From: Alphaproteobacteria bacterium
GTDB lineage: Bacteria > Pseudomonadota > Alphaproteobacteria > DSM-16000 > Inquilinaceae
Length of the DNA stretch: 45,799 nt
Assembly (NCBI GenBank): GCA_009909005.1
Contig: JAAAOG010000024.1
Location: 1-45,799, forward strand
Direction: 5' to 3'
Below the pieces are notes generated by a model. It worked only from the letters and a program-made list of their open reading frames with translations. It made no database searches and was not told the origin of the DNA. Positions 1 through 18,728 of the stretch are shown here, piece by piece (the first letter of the stretch is position 1; every line of letters starts with the position of its first letter). The position numbers were made by a program, and so were the translations under genes.

Positions 1-2
1 AC

Positions 3-119
3 CGTCACACGATCGAGGGCGAGGACGGCATCACCCCGCCGGACCTGCTGCGGCTGTCGATCGGGCTCGAATCGGTCGAGGATCTGATTGCGGACCTGGA
101 GCAGGCGCTGGATTTCTGA
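3..119 (+). CDS. PLP-dependent Cys/Met metabolism enzyme (C-terminal end)
   Basis: Only the last 38 codons are in the window, entering at the left edge and ending with TGA at 117-119. The readable tail (RHTIEGEDGITPPDLLRLS followed by IGLESVEDLIADLEQALDF) has the pattern 'RLSIGLE..EDLI.DL.QAL', which is the usual C-terminus of the cystathionine gamma-synthase / cystathionine beta-lyase / O-succinylhomoserine sulfhydrylase family, fold-type I PLP enzymes of methionine and cysteine metabolism. The pieces that separate MetB, MetC and MetZ (PLP lysine and substrate pocket) lie outside the window, so no symbol is given. Three near-identical 13-14 bp repeats follow directly after the stop. Confidence 0.75.
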   Translation, partial: RHTIEGEDGITPPDLLRLSIGLESVEDLIADLEQALDF

Positions 120-252: not shown

Positions 253-507
253 CTACTGGGCCGCCTCGGTGATCGGCTCCAGGTGCTTGGGCGGCCGGCC
301 GCGCCGGCGGGCGCCGTCGGCCCCGCCGTTCTGGCCCGGGGCGCCGTTCATGCCGGCCTTGCCGGCAGGCTGGGCGGTGAGCTCGCGCAGGCATTTGCGC
401 AGCATGTTGACCTCGCGCTTGTCGGCGCGATCCCAGATCTCGATGGTGCTGAGCTTGTTCTCGACAAGGTCGACCAGCGTCTCGACCGACTGTTTCGACA
501 GCTGCAT
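253..507 (-). CDS. Small conserved protein with C-terminal GRP (AT-hook-like) basic motif
   Basis: An 84-residue protein starting MQLSKQSVETLVDLVENKLS and ending TAG. The first 45 residues look like a two-helix acidic/basic segment. I recall small alphaproteobacterial proteins with a similar 'LVDLVENKL' opening, but cannot name a family. Residues about 46-65 are a Gly/Ala/Asn linker, followed by RRRGRPPK, the core of an AT-hook minor-groove binding motif. The start is well supported by GGGAGGGG a few bases upstream on the minus strand. A possible role as a small DNA-associated protein is inference from that one motif. It lies between the PLP enzyme and tRNA-Ser, with no obvious operon partner. 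Confidence 0.65.
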   Translation of the reverse strand: MQLSKQSVETLVDLVENKLSTIEIWDRADKREVNMLRKCLRELTAQPAGKAGMNGAPGQNGGADGARRRGRPPKHLEPITEAAQ

Positions 508-729: not shown

Positions 730-820
730 GGACAGGTGGGTGAGTGGCTTAAACCAGTGGATTGCTAATCCGCCGAGCTCCACAAGGGCTCCGAGGGTTC
801 GAATCCCTCCCTGTCCGCCA
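730..820 (+). tRNA. tRNA-Ser (GCU anticodon)
   Basis: The acceptor stem GGACAGG (730-736) pairs perfectly with CCTGTCC (810-816). It is followed by discriminator G and an encoded CCA (818-820). The anticodon loop reads TTGCTAA with anticodon GCT, a long variable arm follows (CGAGCTCCACAAGGGCTCCG region), and the T-loop GGTTCGAATCC is canonical. The length of 91 nt including CCA fits a class II serine tRNA reading AGC/AGU. An AT-rich stretch with phage-like remnants begins directly downstream, as is common where elements integrate at tRNA 3' ends. Confidence 0.97.
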
Positions 821-940
821 TAGGCCATTGATTTTATTGAGTTTTTTGGCCATCTGTGAAAATCACCCACAAGCCCGCATACAAGGCTTGCTTGGCCTTA
901 TGTGGACGACAATGGACGATTGTCTTCAGAGGAGATCGCT

Positions 941-1234
941 ATGCATGATGACGATGGCAGTGAACCGCAAACTCTCGAAGAGTTCTTTATGAATGAATTT
1001 ATGCCGTCATTCGCGCAAATGCAGTCGCGAGTAATGGCAAATCAATTTATTCTTGTTGAGCTAATAAGCGATGTTGCAAAAGCTCAACCAGATTCGAAAA
1101 AGTATCTTGATAGCCTTTACGAAAGAGTAATAGCGCGACAAGAACAACGGCCTCTTAAGGAACAAGGCAAATCAGACGAAAATTTTCGAGAAGCCGTCAC
1201 AAATATGTTTTCGAAAGCAGCGAGAAGACTATAG
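941..1234 (+). CDS. Hypothetical protein, AT-rich, island-like
   Basis: Unrecognised 97-residue protein starting MHDDDGSEPQTLEEFF and ending KAARRL. I chose ATG 941 because AGAGGAG ends about seven bases before it. An in-frame GTG at 902 would add 13 residues but lacks such a site. The protein is acidic at the N-terminus and otherwise predicted helical (many Glu, Lys, Gln and Met), with no signal peptide or membrane segment. Base composition is visibly AT-richer than the neighbouring genes (codons AAA, TTT, ATT, AAT are common), which suggests recent acquisition. It lies 120 bp after tRNA-Ser and just before an XkdF-like phage remnant. Function unknown. Confidence 0.6.
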   Translation: MHDDDGSEPQTLEEFFMNEFMPSFAQMQSRVMANQFILVELISDVAKAQPDSKKYLDSLYERVIARQEQRPLKEQGKSDENFREAVTNMFSKAARRL

Positions 1235-1247
1235 GCGCCGCCTTTTA

Positions 1248-1286
1248 TCAAACAAAAAGCCCCACCTCGGTGAACCGGGCGGGGCT
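1248..1286 (-). terminator. Intrinsic terminator acting on the minus strand
   Basis: AGCCCC at 1258-1263 pairs with GGGGCT at 1281-1286, with an inner CGG-TGAA-CCG hairpin. Read on the minus strand the stem is followed by TTTTTGTTTG, the classic poly-U tail. On the plus strand there is no T run. No intact minus-strand gene lies upstream of it (1290-1860), so it may be a leftover of a deleted gene, or a weak hairpin serving the plus-strand gene ending at 1234. Confidence 0.6.
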
Positions 1287-1320
1287 CATGGTCGGGGTCG
1301 GGGTCAGGCGGACCGTCTGA

Positions 1321-1431
1321 GGGCATCCCACACGCCCGCTGATCTGGCCATGCGCCGCCCTTGAAGCCGCGGACGTCGTCTTCATCGATGCAAACGGGCG
1401 CGGCCCCGGCGTGCGGTTGCGCAGCGAGTAG
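1321..1431 (+). pseudogene. C-terminal scrap of an unidentified protein
   Basis: In the frame of position 1321 the plus strand reads through without a stop to TAG at 1429-1431, giving a C-terminus ALEAADVVFIDANGRG followed by PGVRLRSE. This has protein-like composition and a plausible tail (ADVVFIDANG..PGVRLR), but no start codon or upstream body, and what precedes it is the terminator region. It lies in the same frame as, and just before, the XkdF-like fragment, so it may be the remains of a neighbouring mobile-element gene. I cannot name the family. Overlapping minus-strand and other plus-strand readings look random. Confidence 0.35.
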
Positions 1432-1755
1432 CTTTTTCACCCCTCGCAAACCGGCCTGCAAAGGGCTGACCCGCTCAACGATGGAGCGGGGGCCGAGTTC
1501 ATGCTGTCGACCCGGGTCGCAAAGGCCATGCTTAAGGGCGATCAAGTCGGCGATGTCGTTCACTCTATGCCGCTCAGTCGAGATCTGGCCAAGGAGCTCG
1601 ATATCGACACCAAAGGCCGCGAAGGGTGGATCGTCGGCATGCGCGTCAATGACGGTGCCGCGTGGCAAGCGGTGAAGTCTGGGGAGTTCCAGGCGTTTCC
1701 TATCGGCGGCAGCGCGATCAGAGAGAGCGTGACGGATGAGCCGGCGCAGGAGTAG
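1432..1755 (+). pseudogene. Prophage XkdF-like protein, C-terminal remnant
   Basis: The open frame from 1432 to the TAG at 1755 contains GDVVHSMPLSRDLAKELDI, then REGWIVGMRVNDGAAWQAV and KSGEFQAFPIGGSAIRE. The pattern 'GW.VG..V.D...W..VKSGEF..F.IGG' is the hallmark of the C-terminal part of XkdF-like putative phage serine proteases, found in head-morphogenesis regions of tailed phages. The first ATG is at 1501, well inside the homologous stretch, and no ribosome site precedes it, so it is a 5'-truncated remnant rather than an intact gene. No capsid, portal or integrase gene remains nearby. Family assignment is from memory of the motif. Confidence 0.55.
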
Positions 1756-1862
1756 AGCGGGTCGTGAATCGTGCGGGCGCTTACGCAACTGTGGACAGAG
1801 CGGGCGGGTGGGTATACCCTGCATTAATGTGCTAGCTGGGATGGCGATCTGGGGGAGGGGTT

Positions 1863-3506
1863 GTGGCGGGAAGGCTGATCGTTGCGGCGTGTGTCTTGGG
1901 ATTGGCGGTCCCCTCGCCGGCTTCATCGCAGGATGGCTTTCAGATCGATGTCACGCCGCAAGAAGCCCTTGACGCGTTCTTGACGATGGACACAACGCCG
2001 CGTCTTGGCGACTTGGCTGTTGGGGAGCGAGGGTTCATCTCACCATTTGCAATCTGTTATGGCAATGGAGAGGTCGGAATCTCGGAAGCGACACGGTTAA
2101 GTGATCCGCCGTCAAGATTTATTTGGAATTTGGAAGTCGAGCGGCATCCTGGAAATCAGCTCGCAGTGAGCGTTGCGGTAGAGCACAGCGACAACAGCTA
2201 TTCATCTGACGATCTTTTGGAGTTGGTGTCGTTTTTTGTAGGTACGGATCCATCATTCGGGAGAGAACTCAATAGATGTGCTGATATTGTTTCGGCATTC
2301 CCGGGCAATCAGATTCTATTGGTATCAACGCTCGACGGATACTCAAGTGTGAGCGAATGGCTTGGAGCCTTGCAATCTGGGGAGCACCCTATTGCTGCCC
2401 GTGTAGGATGGGGAAACGCAGAAAACACTGAAAGCGAAGAGACGGCGAATGTCGCAGCTCCACAAGATGATGCTCAGCCGACAACGCAGCCTGCGCATAT
2501 AAACTGGCTCGTAACGCGTGGTAGCGCGGCGATTGACGACAGCCCAGAAGTACTAGCAATAAAACCATCAACCCAAAACGATCAAGCGACAATTGCTGTA
2601 AATTGTATGGAGGGGCAGACTAGAGTTTTGTTTGGATTTGGACAATACATGATAGCTAATCGGAATGATACTCTAAGAGTAGAATATCGTTTAGATGCAG
2701 AAGCGGCAGAGAGAGATTTTTGGTCAATCAGTACAAGTAATCAATACGTTGGTTTGTGGGGTGGCGGTTCAGTTTCTTTCATTCGACGCCTGCTGTCGCA
2801 TGACCAGATTTATATTCGGGTGACAGAACGAAACGGGGAGCGGCATAGCGCTACCTTTGCGCTTAATGGGCTTGATGATATCGCGACTGAGTTGGCGTCC
2901 GCGTGCAGTTGGGATGCGCCGGCGTTGACATCGGATGAAATTCGCCGGGCGCAGCGGGCCTTGGCGGCGAGGGGCTTCTATGGCGGTCTCATTGATGGCC
3001 AGTGGGGGCCGATGAGCCGACGCGCCTTGATTGAATACCAACGGGATCAGGGATTAGAGCCTACGGGCATATTGGACAGCACGACTTGGTCAAGGCTGGA
3101 TGCAGAGACGCCAACGCAAGAATCTGTGTCGCCCCCAACCGCGCCCGCGGCGTCGGTCGATCGTGGTTCGGATGTGGTGGATCAGCCAGCTACAACTGGC
3201 CGCTTAACGCGTGGCCAGCACAGTGGTGTGCTTGCCGCTATTCGACCGTGCTGGAACATCGACCCGGCAGCCCGGGACATCGGCGAGGTGCAGATCCGGG
3301 TGACCCTGCGGCGCGACCGTTCCGTCGTCGATGCCGAGGTCGTTGACCGCGCCCGCTACAACAGCGACCCGGCCTTCCGCGCCGCCGCCAATCGGGCCCT
3401 GCGTGCGGCCCTGAACCCGGCCTGCCAGCCCTGGCCCCTGCCGCCGGAGCGCTGGCCCGACTGGCAGACTATCGTGTTCGGCTTCGATCCCCGCGACGTG
3501 TTTTGA
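1863..3506 (+). CDS. Composite secreted protein: VasI-like domain, peptidoglycan-binding domain, TolA C-terminal domain
   Basis: A 547-residue protein starting at GTG 1863, just after a GGGGGAGGGG ribosome site. Residues 1-23 form a cleavable signal peptide ([19 protein letters not shown]). Residues about 24-185 are unrecognised. Residues about 210-345 resemble the VasI-type beta-sandwich seen in type VI secretion-associated proteins (paired Trp/Cys and '[19 protein letters not shown]'). Residues about 355-415 are a PG_binding_1 domain ([29 protein letters not shown]). Residues about 445-547 match the C-terminal domain of alphaproteobacterial TolA ([43 protein letters not shown], ending FDPRDVF). 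tolB follows 109 bp downstream, the position of tolA. Unlike TolA it has no N-terminal membrane anchor or long helical stalk. The front is AT-rich and the tail from about 3240 is as GC-rich as the core genome, suggesting recombination into the tolA 3' end. Confidence 0.8.
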
Positions 3507-3615
3507 CCCGGACGACCATGATGCGATCGTTCTTCACAGCCAGACCCGACCCGTCCGATGCCCCGATCCCGGGCACGGTCCCGGCTTCGAGAGGCCCATT
3601 TTCCGGAGACTCGTC

Positions 3616-4959
3616 ATGAGCCCTGCCGTCCTTCGCCGTCGGCTGCCCCTCGGCCGGCGAATCCTCCTGGCCGGAGCCGCCGGCCTGGCCCTGGCCGGCG
3701 GCCTGCCGCGGCCGCGCCTTCACGCGGAACTCTACATTCCCATCGACGAGGGCATCCGCGAACCGCTGCCGATCGCCATCACCGACTTCCACGGCGAGAG
3801 CGAGGCGGAACGCACGGTCGGCCGCGATCTCGCTTCGGTGATATCCGGCAATCTCGAGAGATGCGGGTTGTTCCGCCCCATCAATCCGAATTCGTTCATT
3901 CAGGATCCGGCCTCCATCCGGCTGCGGCCGCGCTTTGCCGACTGGCGGATCATCAATGCGCAGGGCCTCGTCTCCGGCACCGTCAGCGCGCTCGGCGACG
4001 GCCGGCTACGGGTCGAGTTCCGGCTCTGGGACGTGATCGCCGAGCAGCAGGTGGCCGGCCTGGCCTATTCCACCGAGCCGGAGAACTGGCGACGCATCGC
4101 CCACATTGTCTCCGATGCGATTTTCACCGCCGTGACCGGCGAGGACGGCTTCTTCGACACCCGCATCGTCTATATCGCCGAAAGCGGCCCGGCGACCGAG
4201 CGCATCAAGCGCCTGGCGATCATGGATCAGGATGGCGCGAATCATCGCTTTCTGACGAATGATTCGTCGCTCGTGCTGACCCCGCGCTTCTCGCCGACCA
4301 CGCAGGAGATTACCTATCTCGCGTACTACAACCGTCAGCCGCGGGTCTACCTGCTCAATATCGACAGCGGCCGGCAGGAGGTGCTGGGCGAGTTCCCCAA
4401 CATGTCCTTCGCGCCGCGCTTCTCGCCCGACGGCAACCGGGTGATCATGAGCCTGGCGCTGGCCGGCAACACCGACATCCACGTCATGGACCTTCGGACC
4501 CGGGCGCTCAGGCGGCTGACCAGCAGTCCCGGCATCGACACCTCCGCCTCCTATGCACCGGATGGCAGCCGGATCGTCTTCGAATCGGATCGGGGCGGCA
4601 GCCAGCAGCTGTACGTCATGAATGCCGACGGCGCGAATCCCACGCGCATCAGTTTCGGCAATGGCCGCTACGCCGAGCCGGTGTGGTCCCCGCGGGGCGA
4701 TCTCATCGCCTTTACCCGCATCGGCCGCGGCGGCTGGGCCATCGGCGTGATGCGGCCGGACGGGACGGGCGAACGCATCCTTCAGGAAGGCTACCAGGTG
4801 GAGGGGCCGACATGGGCGCCCAATGGTCGCTATATCATGTACTTCGTCAGCCGCGGCGAGCCGCGCCTGCGCGCCGTCGACCTGACCGGGCAGCACAGCT
4901 GGACCGTTCCGACACCGGTCAGCGGTTCCGACCCGGCATGGTCGCCCTTGATTCCCTGA
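3616..4959 (+). CDS. tolB: Tol-Pal system protein TolB
   Basis: A 447-residue periplasmic protein with an arginine-rich signal sequence (about 1-38, hydrophobic core [15 protein letters not shown]). Residues 39-175 form the TolB N-terminal domain ([34 protein letters not shown]). Residues 185-447 are a WD40-like beta-propeller with repeated 'P.FSPDG..I' blades ([56 protein letters not shown]). Length and order are typical. TolB bridges Pal and the TolA C-terminus during outer-membrane constriction. GGAG lies about nine bases before the ATG. It sits between the TolA-tailed composite gene and pal, in the standard operon order. Confidence 0.97.
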
Positions 4960-5044: not shown

Positions 5045-5154
5045 GGGCAGGAACGGTCTCGGCATCGTCGCCGGGCGATCGGTAAAACGGGGCAAGGGTC
5101 CGGGGACCGGAGAAACGGTACCCGCGCGACCGTTGCAGCGCTGAGGGGGCGATG

Positions 5155-5649
5155 ATGCGTAAGTTCTTCAGTATGCTGGCCGTCTGTTTGCTGGTGGCGG
5201 CCTGCGCCGGCCAGGAGGAATCGCCAACCGCCGGCACGGGTGGGCCGTCTCCGGGAGCCGGGGCAGGGCCGGCGCCCGGAACCGTGGCGGAGTTCGTCCA
5301 GGAAGTCGGTGACCGGGTGTTTTTCGGATTCGACCGCTATGACCTGACGCCGGAGGCGCGCACGACGCTCGATGCGCAGGCGGCCTGGCTGCAGCAATAT
5401 CCGGCTGTTGAGGTCGTGATCGAGGGCCACGCCGACGAGCGCGGGACACGCGCCTACAACCTCGCACTCGGCGAGCGCCGCGCGACGGCCGTGCGGAACT
5501 ATTTGGTGGCCCTCGGCGTCGCCCCGAACCGCATCGAAACCGTCAGCTACGGCAAGGAACGGCCGATCGATCCGCGCAGCAACGAGGAGGCGTGGGCCCG
5601 GAACCGCCGTGCTGTGACGACAATCACGGAAGGCGCGCCGACGAGCTGA
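5155..5649 (+). CDS. pal: Peptidoglycan-associated lipoprotein Pal
   Basis: A lipoprotein of 164 residues from ATG 5155 (an adjacent ATG at 5152 would add one Met). GAGGGGG ends five bases before 5155, which favours that start. The signal peptide ends in the lipobox LVAAC, so Cys at about residue 17 is lipidated and anchors the protein in the outer membrane. After a Gly/Pro-rich linker comes an OmpA C-terminal peptidoglycan-binding domain (VFFGFDRYDLTPEARTTLD, IEGHADERGTRAYNLALGER, RRAVTTI). The NLALGERRA motif carries the conserved residues of the diaminopimelate-binding pocket. Partner of TolB. A terminator-like hairpin follows the gene. Confidence 0.97.
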   Translation: MRKFFSMLAVCLLVAACAGQEESPTAGTGGPSPGAGAGPAPGTVAEFVQEVGDRVFFGFDRYDLTPEARTTLDAQAAWLQQYPAVEVVIEGHADERGTRAYNLALGERRATAVRNYLVALGVAPNRIETVSYGKERPIDPRSNEEAWARNRRAVTTITEGAPTS

Positions 5650-5731: not shown

Positions 5732-5846
5732 GTGCGACGAGCGTTTTGACCCCGTCACAGTTTCGCCGGTTTGACCGGGCTGACTCGGTCCGTATGTGCG
5801 GGGGAGGCGGGCGACGCCTTTCCGGAGTGCCCGCGATGAGGTCAGG

Positions 5847-6920
5847 ATGACGAGAATTGGGATTGCCCGCCTGGGCGCTGCGGCGCTGTTGATCGGTTGC
5901 GTTGCCGGACCCGCTCCGGCGCTCGGCAGCGGCGCGTCCGAGCTGTCTGACGTGGCACTGGACATCCGGAGCTTGCGGGAGGACGGCCGGGCTCTGGCCG
6001 TCGAGGTCGCCCAGGCACAGCAGCTGCCGCAGAACTATGCGGCGCAGGTGGAAGTGCGGCTGCTGGAGCTGGAACGGCGGCTGCAGGCGCTGACCGGGCA
6101 GATCGAGGAGCTGCAGCACCGGACCGGCCAGGTCGACGACCGGCTCGACCGGGCGCTGGCCGATATCGAGTTCCGGCTCAACCAGCTGGAAGGCGGGGCG
6201 GGGGCCGGCCCCTCGGGACAGGCCGCGCCGGCGCCTGACGCGCCGCCGGAGGCGGCCGGTGTGCCGGGCACGCCCTCGGCGCCGCCGCCGGGGCGCCCGC
6301 CCGGCCGCAGCCCGGACGGCGGTTCGGTCGCCCCGCAGACCTTCGACGACGGCACCGGCACCCTCGGCACGCTGACCTTCCGGACCCCATCCGATGATGC
6401 CGGGGATGCCGGGACGGACGCGCGCGGTTCCGGCTTTGCCGGCCCGACGCGGCTGGCTCCGCAGACCGGCGCAGACGGGTCGGCTGGCGGGCAACCGCCG
6501 CCACGGACCGGGGAAACCGCGGCTTTGCCCGGTGGCACCCCGGCCGAGGACTATCAGGCCGCCTACCGGCTGCTGCAACAGGGCGACTATGCGGCGGCCG
6601 AAACGGCGCTGCAGCAGTTCCTCGCCAGCCATGGCGAGCACCCGCTTGCCAGCAATGCCCAGTACTGGCTGGGCGAGACCTATTACGTCCGCGGCCGCTA
6701 TGACGACGCGGCCTCGGCGTTCGCCCGTGGCTATCAGCGGTTTCCGGACGGCGCCAAGGCCGTCGACAATCTGCTCAAGCTCGGCATGTCGCTCGCCCGT
6801 CTCGACCGCCGGGACGATGCCTGCGTGGCGCTCACCCGCATCGCCACGGAATTCCCGGACGGGCCGATCGCCGTGCAGCGCCGGGCGGAGAGCGAGGCCG
6901 AGCGGCTCGGCTGCCCGTGA
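5847..6920 (+). CDS. cpoB: Cell division coordinator CpoB (YbgF)
   Basis: A 357-residue periplasmic protein from ATG 5847 with a signal peptide (IGIARLGAAALLIGCVAGPAPALG). A longer open frame back to 5796 lacks a good ribosome site. Residues about 45-115 form a trimerising coiled coil with heptad Leu and Gln/Glu (EVRLLELERRLQALTGQIEE). A long Pro/Gly-rich linker follows, then tetratricopeptide repeats from about residue 230 (YRLLQQGDYAAAETALQQFL, NAQYWLGETYYVRGRYDDAA, DNLLKLGMSLARLDRRDDAC). CpoB associates with TolA and coordinates outer-membrane constriction with peptidoglycan synthesis. Its stop overlaps the tilS start by four bases (GTGA), implying translational coupling. Confidence 0.95.
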   Translation: MTRIGIARLGAAALLIGCVAGPAPALGSGASELSDVALDIRSLREDGRALAVEVAQAQQLPQNYAAQVEVRLLELERRLQALTGQIEELQHRTGQVDDRLDRALADIEFRLNQLEGGAGAGPSGQAAPAPDAPPEAAGVPGTPSAPPPGRPPGRSPDGGSVAPQTFDDGTGTLGTLTFRTPSDDAGDAGTDARGSGFAGPTRLAPQTGADGSAGGQPPPRTGETAALPGGTPAEDYQAAYRLLQQGDYAAAETALQQFLASHGEHPLASNAQYWLGETYYVRGRYDDAASAFARGYQRFPDGAKAVDNLLKLGMSLARLDRRDDACVALTRIATEFPDGPIAVQRRAESEAERLGCP

Positions 6921-8326
6921 CGCCGGCGGGTCCGGCCGCAGCGATCGATGCCGAAGCGTTTGCGGCGGCCATGGCGGCTTTCGAGCCGTTCGAACCGGAG
7001 CCGCTGCTGGCGGTGGCGGTGTCGGGCGGGCCGGACAGCATGGCCCTCACTCTTCTGGCCGATGGCTGGGCCCGTGCCCGCCGCGGCCGGGTGGTGGCGT
7101 TCACCGTCGACCATGGCCTGAGATCCGACTCGGGCACGGAGGCGCGCACCGTCGCGGCGTGGATGGCCGGCCGCGGTGTCGCACACCGCATCCTGGCCTG
7201 GGAAAGGACGGGGGGCGGCGCCGGGGAGACGGGCCTGCAGGCTGCCGCCCGCGAAGCGCGCTACCGGTTGCTCGAACAGGCCTGTGGCGCCCAGGACATC
7301 CTGCACCTGCTGCTCGCCCATACGCGCGACGATCAGGCGGAAACCCTTCTGCTGCGCCTGTCGCGCGGCAGCGGCCCGGACGGCCTGGCGGCCATGCCAG
7401 CCTGTCGGGAGCTCCGCCATGTCCGGCTGCTGCGGCCGCTGCTCGGTTTCGCCAAGGCCGATCTGCTGGCGACCTGCCGGGCTCATGGCCAGGACTGGGT
7501 GGAAGACCCGTCGAATGCGTTGCCGCGGTATGCGCGCGGGCGTTTGCGCGCCGCCACGGACGCACTGGCGCGGGAGGGGCTCGGCAGTGCGAGCCTGGCG
7601 CTGAGTGCGAGCCGGGCAGGGGGGCTGCGGGCCTATGTTGACGGCGAGGTGGCGGCGTTCCTGGCCGCCGCGGCGGTGATCCGGCCGGAGGGATACATCG
7701 CCCTCGATGCCGGGCTGCTTGAAGCCGCCCCGCCGGAAATCGCTGCCCGTGGCCTGGCGCGCTGTCTCACCGTCATCGGCGGCGGCGCCTATCCGCCGCG
7801 TCATGCCCGGTTGATGCGGCTGTTGGCCTGGTTGCGGCAGTCCCCGGGGCCGGGCGGCGGCGCCGGCGCGACGCTCGGCGGCTGTCAAATCGTCGCGAAG
7901 CGAGGGGGCAACACGCCGGGACCGGGTGTCCGGCACTGGCTGATCATGCGCGAACCGGCCAAGGCGCACGACCGGGTCCGCGCCGCGCCGGGACACCGTC
8001 TGTGGTGGGACCGCCGCTTCATCGTCGGGCCGCTGGAGCCGGTCGCTGCGGCCGCTGGCGGCTGCAGCGTGCAGCGGCTGGGCCGGCAGGGCGCCGCGCT
8101 GCTTGCCGGGGCTGCAGTCCCGGCTGCCGTCCGCGCCGGCCTGCCGGGGCTGTGGCGAAACGATCGGCTGGTGGGACTGCCGGCAATTGCGCCGCGCGAG
8201 GGCTTGAAGAGGTCGAACCTGCCGCCTTTTTTCCGTATGGTCTTTGTGCCGCCGGAACCGCTGGCGGGGCCGGGCTTCGGCGCGGCCGGGCCGGATCCGC
8301 AATCCGGGTATGGGCCGCGAGCATGA
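6917..8326 (+). CDS. tilS: tRNA(Ile)-lysidine synthetase TilS
   Basis: Starts at GTG inside the cpoB stop (GTGA overlap). The product is 469 residues. The PP-loop motif SGGPDS lies at residues 36-41 and binds ATP. It is followed by VVAFTVDHGLRSDSGTEART and LLAHTRDDQAETLLLRLSRG, the conserved core of TilS. The enzyme adenylates C34 of tRNA-Ile(CAU) and attaches lysine so that it reads AUA; it is cytoplasmic and normally essential. Residues about 165-190 (LLRPLLGFAKADLLATCRA) match the family. The C-terminal half is more variable, with an Ala/Gly-rich region. The tilS-ftsH order is widely conserved. Confidence 0.95.
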   Translation: MTPAGPAAAIDAEAFAAAMAAFEPFEPEPLLAVAVSGGPDSMALTLLADGWARARRGRVVAFTVDHGLRSDSGTEARTVAAWMAGRGVAHRILAWERTGGGAGETGLQAAAREARYRLLEQACGAQDILHLLLAHTRDDQAETLLLRLSRGSGPDGLAAMPACRELRHVRLLRPLLGFAKADLLATCRAHGQDWVEDPSNALPRYARGRLRAATDALAREGLGSASLALSASRAGGLRAYVDGEVAAFLAAAAVIRPEGYIALDAGLLEAAPPEIAARGLARCLTVIGGGAYPPRHARLMRLLAWLRQSPGPGGGAGATLGGCQIVAKRGGNTPGPGVRHWLIMREPAKAHDRVRAAPGHRLWWDRRFIVGPLEPVAAAAGGCSVQRLGRQGAALLAGAAVPAAVRAGLPGLWRNDRLVGLPAIAPREGLKRSNLPPFFRMVFVPPEPLAGPGFGAAGPDPQSGYGPRA

Positions 8327-8449
8327 CGAGATTGTCTGGCCCGTGCGGGACATTATTTACTTGACGTGAGCGCTCGGGCGTTGACACGGCCGGGGAGGGG
8401 ACGAGATCAGAACCCCAAGGGGTGCTTTAGCGAGGAGAGGCTTCGTCCT

Positions 8450-10372
<1,923 letters not shown>

Positions 10373-10398
10373 GCGCGACGGTCATCGGTTTCGGCCAG

Positions 10399-10431
10399 GG
10401 CCCCTCTCCCGCCCGGGAGAGGGGCCGTTTT
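10399..10431 (+). terminator. Rho-independent terminator after ftsH
   Basis: GGCCCCTCTCCC (10399-10410) and GGGAGAGGGGCC (10415-10426) form a perfect 12-pair stem with a four-base GCCC loop, followed by GTTTT. It lies 27 bases past the ftsH stop and separates ftsH from folP. Confidence 0.92.
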
Positions 10432-10495
10432 GCGTTGGGCCGGATTGACCTTACGCGTTCAGACCCGACATGGCGTCCTAGGGATAGCACCGCGC

Positions 10496-11539
10496 ATGAC
10501 CGGCCACACGTCTGACGAACCTCTTCCGCGGCCGGTGCTGGCGGCCGGGGCGGTCGACGCGGCAAAGGCCGTGTCGCTCGGTGGCGGCCCGTTCGCCTTC
10601 AGCCATGTCGAAATCCGGGACCCGGACAGTCGCCGGATCGTCCCGGTCGAGGCGCTGCCTGACGCCCTGCAGCCGGCGCTCGAACGGCTGACGGCGCCGC
10701 GCCCGCCTGTAGCCGGCCTGAACTGGCAGCGGCCGCGCATCATGGGCGTCGTCAACGTCACTCCGGACAGCTTTTCAGATGGCGGCGATGCTTTCGATCC
10801 CGGCGCGGCCGTGGCGCGCGGCTTGGCGCTGGTCGACGCCGGTGCCGACATCCTCGATATCGGCGGCGAATCGACCCGGCCGGGTGCCACCCCGGTCGAT
10901 CCGCTCGAGGAGCAGCGCCGCATTGTCCCGGTTATCGCCGCCCTGGCCGACCGCGGCATCCGGGTTTCCGTCGACACCCGCCATGCCCACACCATGAAGG
11001 CGGCGCTGGATGCCGGGGCGCAGATCGTCAACGACGTCACGGCACTCCGCGGCGATCCCGCGGCGCTGCGCACGGTTTCGCAGGCCCGCATCCCTGTGGT
11101 TCTGATGCATATGCAAGGCGAGCCACAGACCATGCAACGGGCGCCCAGCTATGCCGACGCGCCGCGCGACGTCTACACGTTCCTTGAAGAACGCCTGGCC
11201 GCCTGCGCGGCGGCCGGCATCCCGCGCGCGCACGTTCTGGTCGACCCCGGGATCGGCTTCGGCAAGAGCTTGGCGCACAATCTTCAGATCCTGCATCAAG
11301 TCGGGCTGTATCACGGCCTGGGCTGCCCGGTGGTCGTCGGCGTGTCGCGCAAGCGCTTCATCGCCGCCCTGAGCCGTGACGAGGCGCCGAAGGACCGGGT
11401 GCCGGGCTCGCTGGCCGCGGCGCTTGCGGCGGTGGAGCAGGGGGTCCAGATGGTCCGCGTGCACGACGTCGCGGAAACCGCCCAGGCCCTCGCTGTCTGG
11501 CGCGCCATCCGCCTCGGCGGACTCAATGCGACGCCATAA
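10496..11539 (+). CDS. folP: Dihydropteroate synthase
   Basis: A 347-residue product from ATG 10496. An open frame back to 10430 overlaps the terminator tail and is unlikely to be coding. The TIM-barrel DHPS signatures are present: GVVNVTPDSFSDGGD (pterin site), ILDIGGESTRPGATPV, RVSVDTRHA, IVNDVTAL, VVLMHMQG, VDPGIGFGKS and GVSRKRFI. It joins p-aminobenzoate to hydroxymethyl-dihydropterin pyrophosphate in folate synthesis and is the target of sulfonamides. An N-terminal extension of about 80 residues before the barrel is longer than in E. coli FolP but common in alphaproteobacteria. glmM, which often follows folP, is absent; a convergent gene begins 33 bp downstream. Confidence 0.96.
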   Translation: MTGHTSDEPLPRPVLAAGAVDAAKAVSLGGGPFAFSHVEIRDPDSRRIVPVEALPDALQPALERLTAPRPPVAGLNWQRPRIMGVVNVTPDSFSDGGDAFDPGAAVARGLALVDAGADILDIGGESTRPGATPVDPLEEQRRIVPVIAALADRGIRVSVDTRHAHTMKAALDAGAQIVNDVTALRGDPAALRTVSQARIPVVLMHMQGEPQTMQRAPSYADAPRDVYTFLEERLAACAAAGIPRAHVLVDPGIGFGKSLAHNLQILHQVGLYHGLGCPVVVGVSRKRFIAALSRDEAPKDRVPGSLAAALAAVEQGVQMVRVHDVAETAQALAVWRAIRLGGLNATP

Positions 11540-11572
11540 TTGCCTGCTCTGCCAACGGTTTCCGGGAAATCT

Positions 11573-14530
11573 TCAGCAAAGACGTTCAAGCAGCTGCGTA
11601 AGCCATTGTGGTGGTTCGGAAAATTCTGTCCCGCTGAGAAGGAACGTAAAGGTCTCTGCCTTAAGTCCAATCTCTGCCTCTTCTGCAGCGATTTCAGCCG
11701 GTTGCGGTGCGTCCTTGACAAATCGATAGAGGCCGCCGAACCGACCCACCACCTCCAGGCCGGCTGGAACCGGCCGCCATGACAGCCCTGCCTGGGTGCA
11801 AAGCCGCGCGAGACCATTGGCCTCGTCGGTGGCCGTCATCTGTCCGCAATGTTCGACCAGTGCGGCGGCAAAGCCTCCCGCACCGCTGCACGAGTCCGCA
11901 TCGCCCACGGCATGAAGGCCGCGCTCGGCCGCCGCGGCGGCGTCATGGAACAGCTCGCGATTCCAGGCCAGAGCCTCGGCGGCGCCGGCCGGCATGCCGC
12001 GCTCCAGGCCGGGGACCAGGATCATGATGGCAAGCTCGAGGTCCTGGAACTGCCCCGGCGGTCCGAAGAGCAGGCTCTCTTCGCTCAGGCCTTCGGGGAG
12101 CGCGGCCAGGACGCCGTCCTCCAGGGCGGCGAGCCGGCCGGCAACCGGGACGGCGACCCCGACGGTGACCGGCGCCTCGCCGTCGAAGAGCCCGCCCGCC
12201 GTCCAGCCCTGCAGCAGAGCGAGAATGGCCTGCACCTCGGCCTCGAGTCCGGGGGCGTCTATCGGATGCCAATGCAGGCCTGAAATCCCCGGGTCGGCAG
12301 CCGGTATTCCTGTCGATTCGGTGCCCTGGAGCGACAACCCACCGCCGTGGAAGACGGCGCTCAGATATCGCACGATGGCGGGGTGCTGGCGCATCCGGGC
12401 GGCCAAAGACGCGGTTTTGGCAGTTTCCGAAGCCGCGGCGAGGGAGAAGCCGCTGTTCACCGGCTGTCGGTCGCGGTCGACGGGCGCCAGGACCATGGCA
12501 TGGCGGACACGCAGCAACAGAGGCAGCAGCGCGCCGGCGGTGACTGTGCCGGCATCATCGACGATGGCCATGTCGAACAGGCCGTCGGTCAAGGGGAGGT
12601 GCGACGGCACGAGGTCGGCCGGCGCGGCCCAAAGGGGGTAATTGCGGACCAGCAGCCGCAGGAACTTGGCGAGCTGCTGGTCGCCGGCGGGGTCGGGCCC
12701 GTCCTCTCCGGAATCGTCGACAAAGCGGCGGTCGGATATCGCCTGGAAGACGGCCGCCAGCTTTTCGCCGCTCTTGGCGGCCCCCTTGGCGATGGCGGCA
12801 CGCCAGACATCGCGCAGCAGGCCCTGCGAGTCGCGGGCCAGACGGCTCTCGGCCTGCGCCAGTTGTTCGGCGATCCGGGCCGCCGGCGGCAGCCGCCGAA
12901 CTTCGGCCAGCAGCTCGGTTTCCCGCGTACCAAGCTCGCGCCAGCGCGCAATGGTGCGGAGCTGTGCGAAGGCATCGGCCAGGGCTTCTGCCGTCGCCGG
13001 ATCGCCCAAGGCATTCCGGTCCGGCAGCGGCAGTCCCGCCCAGACCGTATCGGGAAGCCCCGCAACGGCGTCCGTCGCCGTCCCGGCCATGGCCCGAACC
13101 CGGGCCTCTGTTTCCTTGCGGCCGAACAGCCGGCCGAACAGGCCGGGCCGTTCCCCGGTCAGAGCCCGCAATTCGGACTCCGCCGCCGCGGCGGTTTCGC
13201 CGCCGATCGCCAGCTTGTCGGCATGCGCGAACACGGGCTGCCAGGCCGCCTCGACCCCCGCACGCAACCGCTGCCGCTCGGCCCGGCATTCGGCCAGGGC
13301 GCGAATGGCACTGCGTGACGACTCGATCCGTCCCCGGGCCGTCGCCAACTCGCCTTTGGGCTCGGCCAGCGCCCGCTGCCGGGCCTGTTTCGACGGCGGC
13401 GCGATGCCGGTCGGCCGCTCGGCTTCCAGCTCGTCGGCCGTGCGCGACAGCCGTGCCAGAATCTCTTCGCCGCCAAGCCGCGGGATCCAGGTCTGGCGCC
13501 GCGCCAGCAGGCCCTGGAAGCGCTCGACCACCTCATCGGTCATCTCGGCAACCGGGTGGATGTACAGAACGCTCTGGCCGGACACGACGAGATTGGCGAT
13601 GGCGTCGGCGATAAAGGCCTCGCGCTCGCCGCCGGGCGAGGCCTCAACCACGCTCAGACCGGCGGAAAGACAGTGCTCCAGCTGTTGCGACGCCGCTTCG
13701 CTCAGGGGGTCGATTTCCAGCAAGGGCAGCTGGTCGGCTTTCCTCCTGCCGGCGCCGTCTTCCGGACGGTCGCTCCGCCGGGCGACCAAAGCATGCAGCG
13801 CCGTCATATGCGTGGCCGACGCATAGGCGTGGGGCAGGCGCTCAAGCTCGCCAAGTTGGGCCCGCTGCAATGGCGATGACGGACTGACGAACAGGATCGG
13901 GGTGCGGTACCAGCCCGGGCCGGCCTGCGACTCCGGAAAAGCCTCCGTCTGAACCTCCGCAAGCGCTGCTTCCGTCAGGTTCAGATGTCCGGCAAGCGCG
14001 GCCAGGCAGGCCTCCAGCGACGGGAAGCTGCCATGCTCGATCGTCCGGCAGGCCGCATCCGCCATCGCCGGGTCGTGGCCCGATTCGACAAGCGCCCGGC
14101 GACTCAGGCGCGGCCGCCGGTTGGCCGTCTTGCGCAGCTGGGCCGTGTCGAGGCTGAGGCTGACGGTGACCTCGACGAAGAACAGCGGCGTGACCAGACC
14201 GCCTGCGTCGACATGAACCGGATACCCATAGGACAGCGTCTGCATGCTGCGGCCGTCGAGGAAGTCCGGCAAATCCGGGTTGTCCGCGATCCGAAAGCCG
14301 GCGATGCCCTGGCCATCCCGAAAGAACGTCTCTCGTTCGGTCACCAGCGGAACGAAGAGAGTGCCGCGCCGCTCGGCGCGCAGGCTCAGCCCGAACCGCC
14401 CGTCGAAACGCACCTGGTTCCGGGCCCAGGCCACGAGACTTTCCAGCGTCGGCATCGCTTCGCCGTCATCCGGACCGCGACCGGAACGCGGGTCTGCCGG
14501 ATCCTGGCGGTTGGAAAGAGGTGCAGTCAT
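11573..14530 (-). CDS. SF1 (DNA2/NAM7-like) helicase homologue with degenerate ATPase motifs
   Basis: A 985-residue protein; an internal Met at residue 26 (MPTLESLVAWARN) may be the true start. The N-terminal region (about 30-215, LSYGYPV, TPLFFVEV) resembles the lead domain of large bacterial DNA2/NAM7-type helicases. Residues 275-340 align to the first RecA domain (PLSEAASQQLEHCLSAGLSV, IANLVVSGQSVLYI), but the Walker A site, normally GPPGTGKS, is ASPGGERE at about 297-304: no Lys and no Ser/Thr. The Walker B position near 652-660 reads DMAIVDDAG rather than 'IIDEAS'. An Ala-rich helical region fills 360-600. The C-terminus (LHWHPIDAPG, LELAIMILVPGLERGMP, LFHDAAAAAERGLHAVGD) mirrors helicase motifs IV-VI without the usual arginine finger. 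The unbroken length suggests a maintained pseudoenzyme; function unknown. It is convergent with folP and divergent from mazG. Confidence 0.75.
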   Translation of the reverse strand: MTAPLSNRQDPADPRSGRGPDDGEAMPTLESLVAWARNQVRFDGRFGLSLRAERRGTLFVPLVTERETFFRDGQGIAGFRIADNPDLPDFLDGRSMQTLSYGYPVHVDAGGLVTPLFFVEVTVSLSLDTAQLRKTANRRPRLSRRALVESGHDPAMADAACRTIEHGSFPSLEACLAALAGHLNLTEAALAEVQTEAFPESQAGPGWYRTPILFVSPSSPLQRAQLGELERLPHAYASATHMTALHALVARRSDRPEDGAGRRKADQLPLLEIDPLSEAASQQLEHCLSAGLSVVEASPGGEREAFIADAIANLVVSGQSVLYIHPVAEMTDEVVERFQGLLARRQTWIPRLGGEEILARLSRTADELEAERPTGIAPPSKQARQRALAEPKGELATARGRIESSRSAIRALAECRAERQRLRAGVEAAWQPVFAHADKLAIGGETAAAAESELRALTGERPGLFGRLFGRKETEARVRAMAGTATDAVAGLPDTVWAGLPLPDRNALGDPATAEALADAFAQLRTIARWRELGTRETELLAEVRRLPPAARIAEQLAQAESRLARDSQGLLRDVWRAAIAKGAAKSGEKLAAVFQAISDRRFVDDSGEDGPDPAGDQQLAKFLRLLVRNYPLWAAPADLVPSHLPLTDGLFDMAIVDDAGTVTAGALLPLLLRVRHAMVLAPVDRDRQPVNSGFSLAAASETAKTASLAARMRQHPAIVRYLSAVFHGGGLSLQGTESTGIPAADPGISGLHWHPIDAPGLEAEVQAILALLQGWTAGGLFDGEAPVTVGVAVPVAGRLAALEDGVLAALPEGLSEESLLFGPPGQFQDLELAIMILVPGLERGMPAGAAEALAWNRELFHDAAAAAERGLHAVGDADSCSGAGGFAAALVEHCGQMTATDEANGLARLCTQAGLSWRPVPAGLEVVGRFGGLYRFVKDAPQPAEIAAEEAEIGLKAETFTFLLSGTEFSEPPQWLTQLLERLC

Positions 14531-17669: not shown

Positions 17670-18728
17670 ATGATCGCACTGACCGCCCTGGCCGCGGCCT
17701 CGCCGGCCCATACCATTGGCCAGGACCGCGCCCGCGCGCTTGGCCGGGCGGTCTTTGCCGGTCGCCAGGACGCCTTCGCCCGCATGGGCGAGGTCTATGG
17801 CAATGCCGGCGTTCTGGAACGCCAGTCCTGCGTGCCAATCGACTGGTATGGTGTGGAGCACGGCTGGGGCGACCGCAACCGGCTCTATGTCGACCATGCC
17901 CTCGCGCTGCTCCGCGAATCGGCGAGCCGCTGCCTCGCCGAGGGCGGCCTGTCGCCCGGCGACGTCGACAGCCTCGTCGTCGTCTCCAGCACCGGGATTG
18001 CCACGCCCGGCCTGTGTGCCCGGCTGATGGACCACCTGCCCTTCCGACAGGATGTCGAGCGGCTGCCGGTCTTCGGCCTCGGTTGCGCCGGCGGCGTCCT
18101 GGGGCTGGCTCGGGCCGCCGCCCTCGCCCGCGCCCGGCCCGGGGCGACGGTGCTGTTGCTGGTTGTCGAGCTCTGCGGCCTAACCTTCCGCCGCGCCGAC
18201 ACCAGCAAGAGCAACATCATCGCCACGGCCCTCTTTGGCGATGGTGCCTGCGCGGCCCTGATTCGCAATGTCGACGAGGCCGAGGGCGAGAAGCTGCGTC
18301 CGCTGGCGTCAATCGGCCCGGCCGGCGAGCATCGCTGGCCCGACAGCCTCGATATCATGGGCTGGTCGATCGAGGAGGACGGGCTGGGCGTGATCTTCTC
18401 GCGCGACATCCCTGCCCTGGTTCGCCGCGACCTGCGAGCCGCGGCCGACCGCTTCCTCGGTCGGCACGGTCTCGATACCGCCGATCTTGCCGGTGTCGTG
18501 TGTCATCCCGGCGGCGCCAAGGTCCTCCAGGCGCTGGCGGAGGTCTTCGCCTTGAATGACGAGGCCCTGGAGGGCGAATGGGCCGTTCTGTCCCGCCATG
18601 GCAATATGTCGGCACCGACGGTGTTGTTCGTGCTGGCCGAGAAGATCGCCCGCGGCGCCCGGGGCCGCCATTTGATGACGGCGCTCGGGCCGGGCTTCAC
18701 CGCCGGCTTCTGTGTGCTCGACCTTTGA
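17670..18728 (+). CDS. Type III polyketide synthase (chalcone/alkylpyrone synthase-like)
   Basis: A 352-residue thiolase-fold enzyme from ATG 17670. The catalytic triad is complete: Cys139 in GLGCAGGVLGLARAAALA, His279 in VCHPGGAKV, and Asn312 in SRHGNMSAPTVLFVLA. The GFTAGFCVLDL C-terminus matches the typical 'GPG...' strand. Such enzymes extend a fatty-acyl or aromatic CoA starter with malonyl-CoA and cyclise the chain to resorcinols, pyrones or phloroglucinol. Pairing with a membrane isoprenylcysteine-type methyltransferase matches the BpsA-BpsB arrangement of Bacillus, which makes methylated alkylpyrones, so a lipid-like product is the best inference. The methyltransferase begins five bases after the stop, indicating an operon. 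Confidence 0.9.
   Translation: MIALTALAAASPAHTIGQDRARALGRAVFAGRQDAFARMGEVYGNAGVLERQSCVPIDWYGVEHGWGDRNRLYVDHALALLRESASRCLAEGGLSPGDVDSLVVVSSTGIATPGLCARLMDHLPFRQDVERLPVFGLGCAGGVLGLARAAALARARPGATVLLLVVELCGLTFRRADTSKSNIIATALFGDGACAALIRNVDEAEGEKLRPLASIGPAGEHRWPDSLDIMGWSIEEDGLGVIFSRDIPALVRRDLRAAADRFLGRHGLDTADLAGVVCHPGGAKVLQALAEVFALNDEALEGEWAVLSRHGNMSAPTVLFVLAEKIARGARGRHLMTALGPGFTAGFCVLDL

Follow-up and report, generated by a model that had tools for sequence, protein, structure and literature searches.

A VasI-like, peptidoglycan-binding protein ending in TolA domain III beside tolB in an alphaproteobacterial draft genome: more probably mobile-element cargo than a rebuilt TolA

The C-terminal domain III of TolA, described for E. 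coli TolA and solved for Pseudomonas aeruginosa (1LR0, 6S3W), engages TolB through strand addition and also serves as the target of filamentous phage g3p and colicins A and N (PMC7391070, PMC4339652), and the order of the tol genes is highly conserved (PMC7391070). The gene considered here ends in a domain of the same fold and family; unlike TolA, its product is predicted to be exported, and domain III follows a peptidoglycan-binding domain, with neither anchor nor stalk. A second group of comparable proteins comprises VasI/TagO of type VI secretion and the VasI/TagO-like proteins of temperate phages. In contrast to the former, the fused gene does not lie in a type VI secretion cluster, its neighbours being tRNA-Ser, a phage remnant and tolB. 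The temperate-phage proteins are homologous to one of its domains (about 30% identity over 140 aa) but are shorter than the fused protein, and one of them, scanned with Pfam, carries neither PG_binding_1 nor a TolA tail.

The window, a stretch of 45,799 bp, is an entire contig (C116) of a 4.23-Mb draft genome in 230 contigs. It begins within the C-terminal end of a gene (1-119, plus strand) whose product is presumably, by recognition of its sequence alone, a PLP-dependent, cystathionine gamma-synthase-like enzyme, followed by a gene for a small conserved protein (253-507, minus strand) and by tRNA-Ser(GCT) (730-820, plus strand). An 8-kb contig of genome G009, free of tol genes, brings together the same enzyme (69% identity across 36 residues at its end), a homologue of the small protein and the adjoining tRNA-Ser(GCT), with one extra gene between enzyme and small protein. 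By this comparison, positions 1-820 are a chromosomal locus unrelated to tol, in its native neighbourhood as in G009, which casts doubt on the earlier note's view that the fused gene stands where tolQ-tolR-tolA should be. GC content drops directly after the tRNA, opening an AT-richer stretch, delimited by base composition, that reaches the tolA tail (823-3245) and holds a remnant similar to a phage XkdF-type head protease (1438-1755, plus strand; PF14550 at its cut-off, 24.0 bits; phrog_1530 and phrog_3017). The region after the tRNA has the look of a tRNA-associated island; a search of the genome for a second copy of the tRNA-Ser 3' end, as an attachment repeat, gave just short matches of 83-86%, and a site other than the tRNA may have been used. 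Short stretches within 1347-1460 are 81-89% identical to contigs C23 (two sites) and C166 and may belong to a dispersed repeat. On the other side of the fused gene, domain matches confirmed the normal order of tolB (3616-4959), pal (5152-5649; OmpA family match and gene order) and cpoB (5796-6920; TPR and TolA_bind_tri matches and gene order), all on the plus strand.

The fused gene runs on the plus strand from GTG at 1863 to TGA at 3506 (547 codons). Its 547-aa product comprises a signal-peptide-like start of 22 residues (1863-1928, by inspection only), an N-terminal region, a VasI/TagO-like domain (2505-2912, plus strand; aa 215-350, Pfam E 8.8e-9), PG_binding_1 (2931-3098, plus strand; aa 357-412, Pfam E 1e-15), a linker of only about 30 residues, and TolA domain III or TolA_C (3195-3503, plus strand; from residue ~445 onwards), the last assigned by homology, profile and predicted structure. 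The score against the VasI model PF11319 is 35.7 bits (cut-off 26.5), whereas that against NCBIfam TIGR03360 is 19, far below the cut-off of 124. The long periplasmic stalk (domain II) is absent, as is the N-terminal transmembrane anchor that couples TolA to TolQR, its place being taken by the signal-peptide-like start and the VasI and PG_binding domains. This domain order had been proposed from the sequence beforehand and was borne out, with the signal peptide recognized by inspection only. In the libraries searched, neither a family model nor a named relative turned up for the combination of VasI-like domain, PG_binding_1 and TolA domain III.

The last ~100 residues have no Pfam match of their own, and their assignment comes from several other lines of evidence. 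The tail is 55% identical to the TolA of genome G007, encoded between tolR and tolB, and its conserved positions (two Cys, a CW motif and a CQP-PLP motif) match those in TolA of relatives. A profile of 23 such tail domains matches the solved P. aeruginosa domains 6S3W and 1LR0 at about 1e-6. An AlphaFold model of the tail has a pLDDT of 84.6, and its top three Foldseek matches (2X9A, 1LR0 and 6S3W) are all TolA domain III, with a probability of 1.00 and TM-scores by query length of 0.57-0.61, at modest E-values of 1.6e-3 to 7.5e-3. Profile, AlphaFold and Foldseek thereby agree on the TolA-type fold that had been suggested for residues 440-547. A model of nearly the whole fused protein reached a pLDDT of 42.6 and is not usable for the front, and a solved-structure search with the protein minus its signal-peptide-like start returned no match.

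Judged by its relatives, the VasI-like front appears to be a cargo gene of temperate phages and plasmids. It matches phrog_1848 (1.8e-20), and the domain occurs in 23 phage records, including Klebsiella phage 3LV2017, where the VasI-like gene is the last before attR, Escherichia phage 500465-2, where it is found close to the record's end and host-like genes come after it, and Labrenzia phage vB_LagS-V1, where it is close to the CI repressor gene. The fused protein itself had one match only in IMG/VR, confined to its PG_binding part. A Paracoccus sediminicola plasmid protein (WP_271118253.1) has the same core of VasI-like domain and PG_binding_1 (36% identity over 204 aa), and a 461-aa relative in genome G004 likewise has VasI-like and PG_binding parts and no TolA tail; both stop after PG_binding_1, whereas the window fusion goes on into the TolA tail. 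On the P. sediminicola conjugative plasmid p2 (L084, 1-4633), this VasI-like and PG_binding_1 protein adjoins BREX genes (WYL regulator, DUF1819, DUF1788 and brxC).

A search with the front in 17 genomes of the order gave matches at E 1e-15 or better in four, full-length only in the genome of the window and in G003 (MAG PL25a_bin.146), which belongs to a different genus. The G003 protein (567 aa, on JANQKE010000160.1) has the same domain order and full architecture and is 41% identical; it differs in location and in having a tail close to G003's own TolA. Its gene adjoins unrelated genes, away from tolB and with no visible prophage around it, and G003 also possesses a complete tolQRA-tolB. Next to it are a metallophosphoesterase gene matching the PADLOC candidate PDC-S60 and a MoxR-FGE gene pair, homologues of which lie on contig C78 in the genome of the window (50% and 41% identity).

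Other arrangements of these domains were also encountered. In genome G010, a 1060-aa protein (L052, contig C311, 9122-12304, minus strand) has PG_binding_1 followed by a TolA domain III-like C-terminus, as in the fused protein, but its front is a Ser/Thr protein kinase, unlike that of the window fusion; the recurrence suggests that PG_binding_1 and the TolA-like end form a reusable module. Two small proteins, of 145 aa (L046, 8446-8883) and 188 aa (L049, 3018-3584), have signal-peptide-like starts and are made up for the most part of a TolA domain III-like domain; the latter also has a short VasI-like start. Also in G010 (L045, contig C51, 4852-7119, minus strand), two tandem TolA domain III matches follow tolR; the one farther downstream belongs to a complete TolA of 312 aa that has an anchor of its own, an arrangement that may reflect a tandem tolA duplication. 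Fragments of 30 aa on G004:C28 and G012:C134, considered as phage-borne tolA ends, were dropped; they lie among ordinary metabolic genes with no phage genes there.

The fused gene is compositionally divided. The best single change point of third-position GC lies at 3246, with values of 0.50 before and 0.90 after it (Fisher p 9e-13, an optimistic figure, as the split was chosen as the best one). The neighbouring genes from tolB to ftsH have values of 0.82-0.88 and the tolA start on contig C108, described below, 0.88, so that the host-like tolA 3' end, by composition and by the tree given below, is the segment 3246-3506 on the plus strand. An AT-richer foreign front, a native tail and a recombination-type joint near 3240 had been read from the letters, and the measured composition upholds that reading. 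A chimeric assembly at 3240, which had been raised as a caution, was judged unlikely: since the front occurs only once in the genome and a false join needs 99 identical bases (k = 99), the joint at 3246 is probably real and should occur in reads. The ambiguous point lies instead where the tail ends, at 3502/3503, with the path forking to tolB or to a prophage.

The upstream tol genes missing from the window were located by MotA_ExbB and ExbD searches of the same genome. The series ybgC-tolQ-tolR-tolA, the last with its first 72 codons, closes contig C108, whose last position, 15246, falls within the proline-rich tolA stalk. The tolA frame there starts MGLNFGISLLLHLLLLAFLLLDLPWW and matches positions 4-70 of the tolA_full model. 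A full TolA query retrieved only three convincing pieces from the genome, namely the beginning on C108, the tail in the window and, where contig C216 ends, a piece of 33 residues; no other tolA middle was detected in the genome, and the sequence at the C108 end occurs nowhere else in it. The statement that tolQ and tolR are absent therefore holds for the window contig only and fails genome-wide, a true loss of tolQR being rejected, and the accompanying suggestion that tolQRA lies elsewhere proved correct. In the relatives G003, G007 and G008, tolQRA and tolB are continuous, and in G007 the locus reads ruvB and ybgC, then tolQRA-tolB, then pal-cpoB.

On contig C216 (6750 bp) there are genes for terminase, portal, protease/capsid, cement and head-tail proteins. 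When reversed, the right end of this contig matches window positions 3404-3502 (plus strand, 99 bp) without a single difference, after which the two run into unrelated DNA. The tail ends in FDPRDVF in both contexts, with different codons: TTT TGA before tolB, TTC TAA before the phage genes. The left end of C216 and the right end of C78 likewise have exact 99-bp identity with other places. Three exact 99-bp overlaps point to a de Bruijn graph with k = 99, which makes 3502 a branching point from which the path leads to tolB or to the prophage. The capsid genes of C216 would be linked to the fused gene through the common 99 bp, and an XkdF-type remnant lies upstream of that gene; the exact C216 end sequence had no match in IMG/VR. 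The MoxR-FGE homologues on C78, which shares the other end of C216, lend modest support to a path fusion-C216-C78; MoxR-FGE genes may have paralogues.

Contig C78 (L054) has further features of its own. At 7758-13690 on its minus strand it encodes a trypsin-like protease, a MoxR-type AAA ATPase and a double FGE-sulfatase-domain protein, a set that is partly homologous to the one beside the G003 fusion and has no clear PADLOC name; we take it to resemble known MoxR conflict systems. A stretch of about 100 bp occurs twice on this contig in opposite orientation (1593-1693 and 17943-18045), one copy soon after an IS transposase gene and the other at the contig end, and the same stretch begins C216.

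The history of the tail follows the host rather than the rest of the protein. In a tree of TolA domains, the G003 fusion tail stands with G003's own TolA (support 92/100, rising to 100/100 without one long-branch row), and a grouping of the window and G003 fusion tails is rejected (p-AU 0.00116). Within G003, the fusion tail and the tolA tail share 61-64% DNA identity; between the two tail copies in the genome of the window, identity is established for 99 bp. Because the tree is host-wise and the G003 pair has so diverged while the window genome's own copies are identical over at least 99 bp, TolA domain III appears to have been acquired lineage by lineage, or rewritten there from the resident tolA, and more recently in the window genome than in G003.

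The reading that we favour, at a probability of roughly 0.64, is that the fused gene is mobile-element cargo beside tRNA-Ser rather than a rebuilt TolA, and that its join to tolB is a wrong exit taken by the assembly. The gene would be carried by a prophage or island at tRNA-Ser, and its 3' end from codon 462 would have been copied recently from the domain III sequence of the resident tolA, over about 260 bp by composition and over at least the last 99 bp by identity. The genome would hold two identical tolA tails, one before tolB and one before the prophage capsid genes. By parsimony, the native tolA body belongs before the tail that leads to tolB and the fusion before the tail that leads to the prophage, since tail-tolB is the native tolA-tolB order. 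The GC-rich tolA stalk would have been lost from the assembly; with the path through the tolA body absent, the fusion is the only visible entry to the tail, and the contig would enter it from the cargo gene and leave it to tolB. In the cell, tolQ-tolR-tolA-tolB-pal would then be intact, and the cargo gene would be followed by the prophage. The position beside tolB is thus probably an assembly artefact rather than the locus of the gene, and we infer both its membership of the element and a periplasmic action of its product.

Among the alternatives, a true rearrangement has the best standing, though we consider it unlikely. The identical tails would have recombined by inversion or translocation, leading the fusion into tolB-pal and tolQRA-tolA into the prophage, with all proteins complete, the tol operon split and tolB-pal stripped of its upstream genes. 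The deposited contig does join the fusion to tolB, both exits from the tail are present in the assembly, and both proteins stay in frame either way. However, this course needs one event more than a wrong exit, and it departs from a tol order that is highly conserved (PMC7391070) and intact in the relatives examined. Its plainest form, a single crossover between diverged tails, was rejected, as the tails in the genome itself are identical over 99 bp, against 61-64% in G003.

Some phages insert in gene ends and restore the gene. A site-specific prophage insertion at the tolA 3' end, which would restore tolA (tolA body-tail-C216) and give the cargo a host tail (fusion-tail-tolB), would agree with the identical stretch stopping at the last codon of the gene, with the VasI-like cargo adjoining attR in phage 3LV2017, and with an integrase gene on C78, which has the other end of C216 in common. 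Yet what immediately precedes the fusion is a chromosomal tRNA-Ser locus and not a phage interior, so that an extra rearrangement would be needed, and the G003 fusion is not at tolA; this course of events seems less probable still than a rearrangement. A bin composed of two strains, with and without the element, would also give a forked graph, and the estimated contamination of the 230 contigs is 3.0%, but tolQ and tolR were not seen a second time on any other contig and a mixture alone leaves the G003 fused gene unexplained, which makes it very improbable as the source of the join. The gene order in the contig and the complete TolA domain III of the protein might suggest a native redesign of Tol-Pal, as the earlier note had proposed, with a soluble peptidoglycan-binding module replacing the TolA anchor and stalk and working with TolB/Pal, but tolQ, tolR and the tolA anchor are present on C108, so that the proposed swap is unsupported, the homologous G003 fusion coexists with a complete tolQRA-tolB, and a protein with no transmembrane anchor cannot couple to TolQR, which leaves this the least credible of the readings.

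With the fused gene read as mobile cargo, its product would be exported and held on peptidoglycan by PG_binding_1, offering a second periplasmic TolA domain III that could bind partners of TolA (TolB) or TolA-using invaders, with no coupling to TolQR. By analogy with what domain III is known to bind, the protein could divert TolA-dependent invaders as a decoy, or modulate TolB-Pal. A more specific proposal, which we regard as speculative and on balance doubtful, is a mobile peptidoglycan-tethered decoy, in which proteins of phages or islands repeatedly copy the resident TolA domain III and so divert phages or bacteriocins that need TolA, or modulate TolB-Pal in the lysogen. If this were true, acquiring the tail anew in every host would hold the decoy in step with the TolA of that host.

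Were the window right as deposited, the organism would have a Tol-Pal system with no anchored TolA, which is very probably not so, and for draft genomes in general the locus is a caution that short identical gene tails can create the appearance of a rearranged operon. In two genera, the TolA part of the protein tracks the host instead of its companion domains, which points to repeated capture or conversion, by mobile cargo, of an envelope domain of the host. Such capture of a host domain gives a testable idea, namely that these proteins may serve the exclusion of TolA-dependent phages or bacteriocins.
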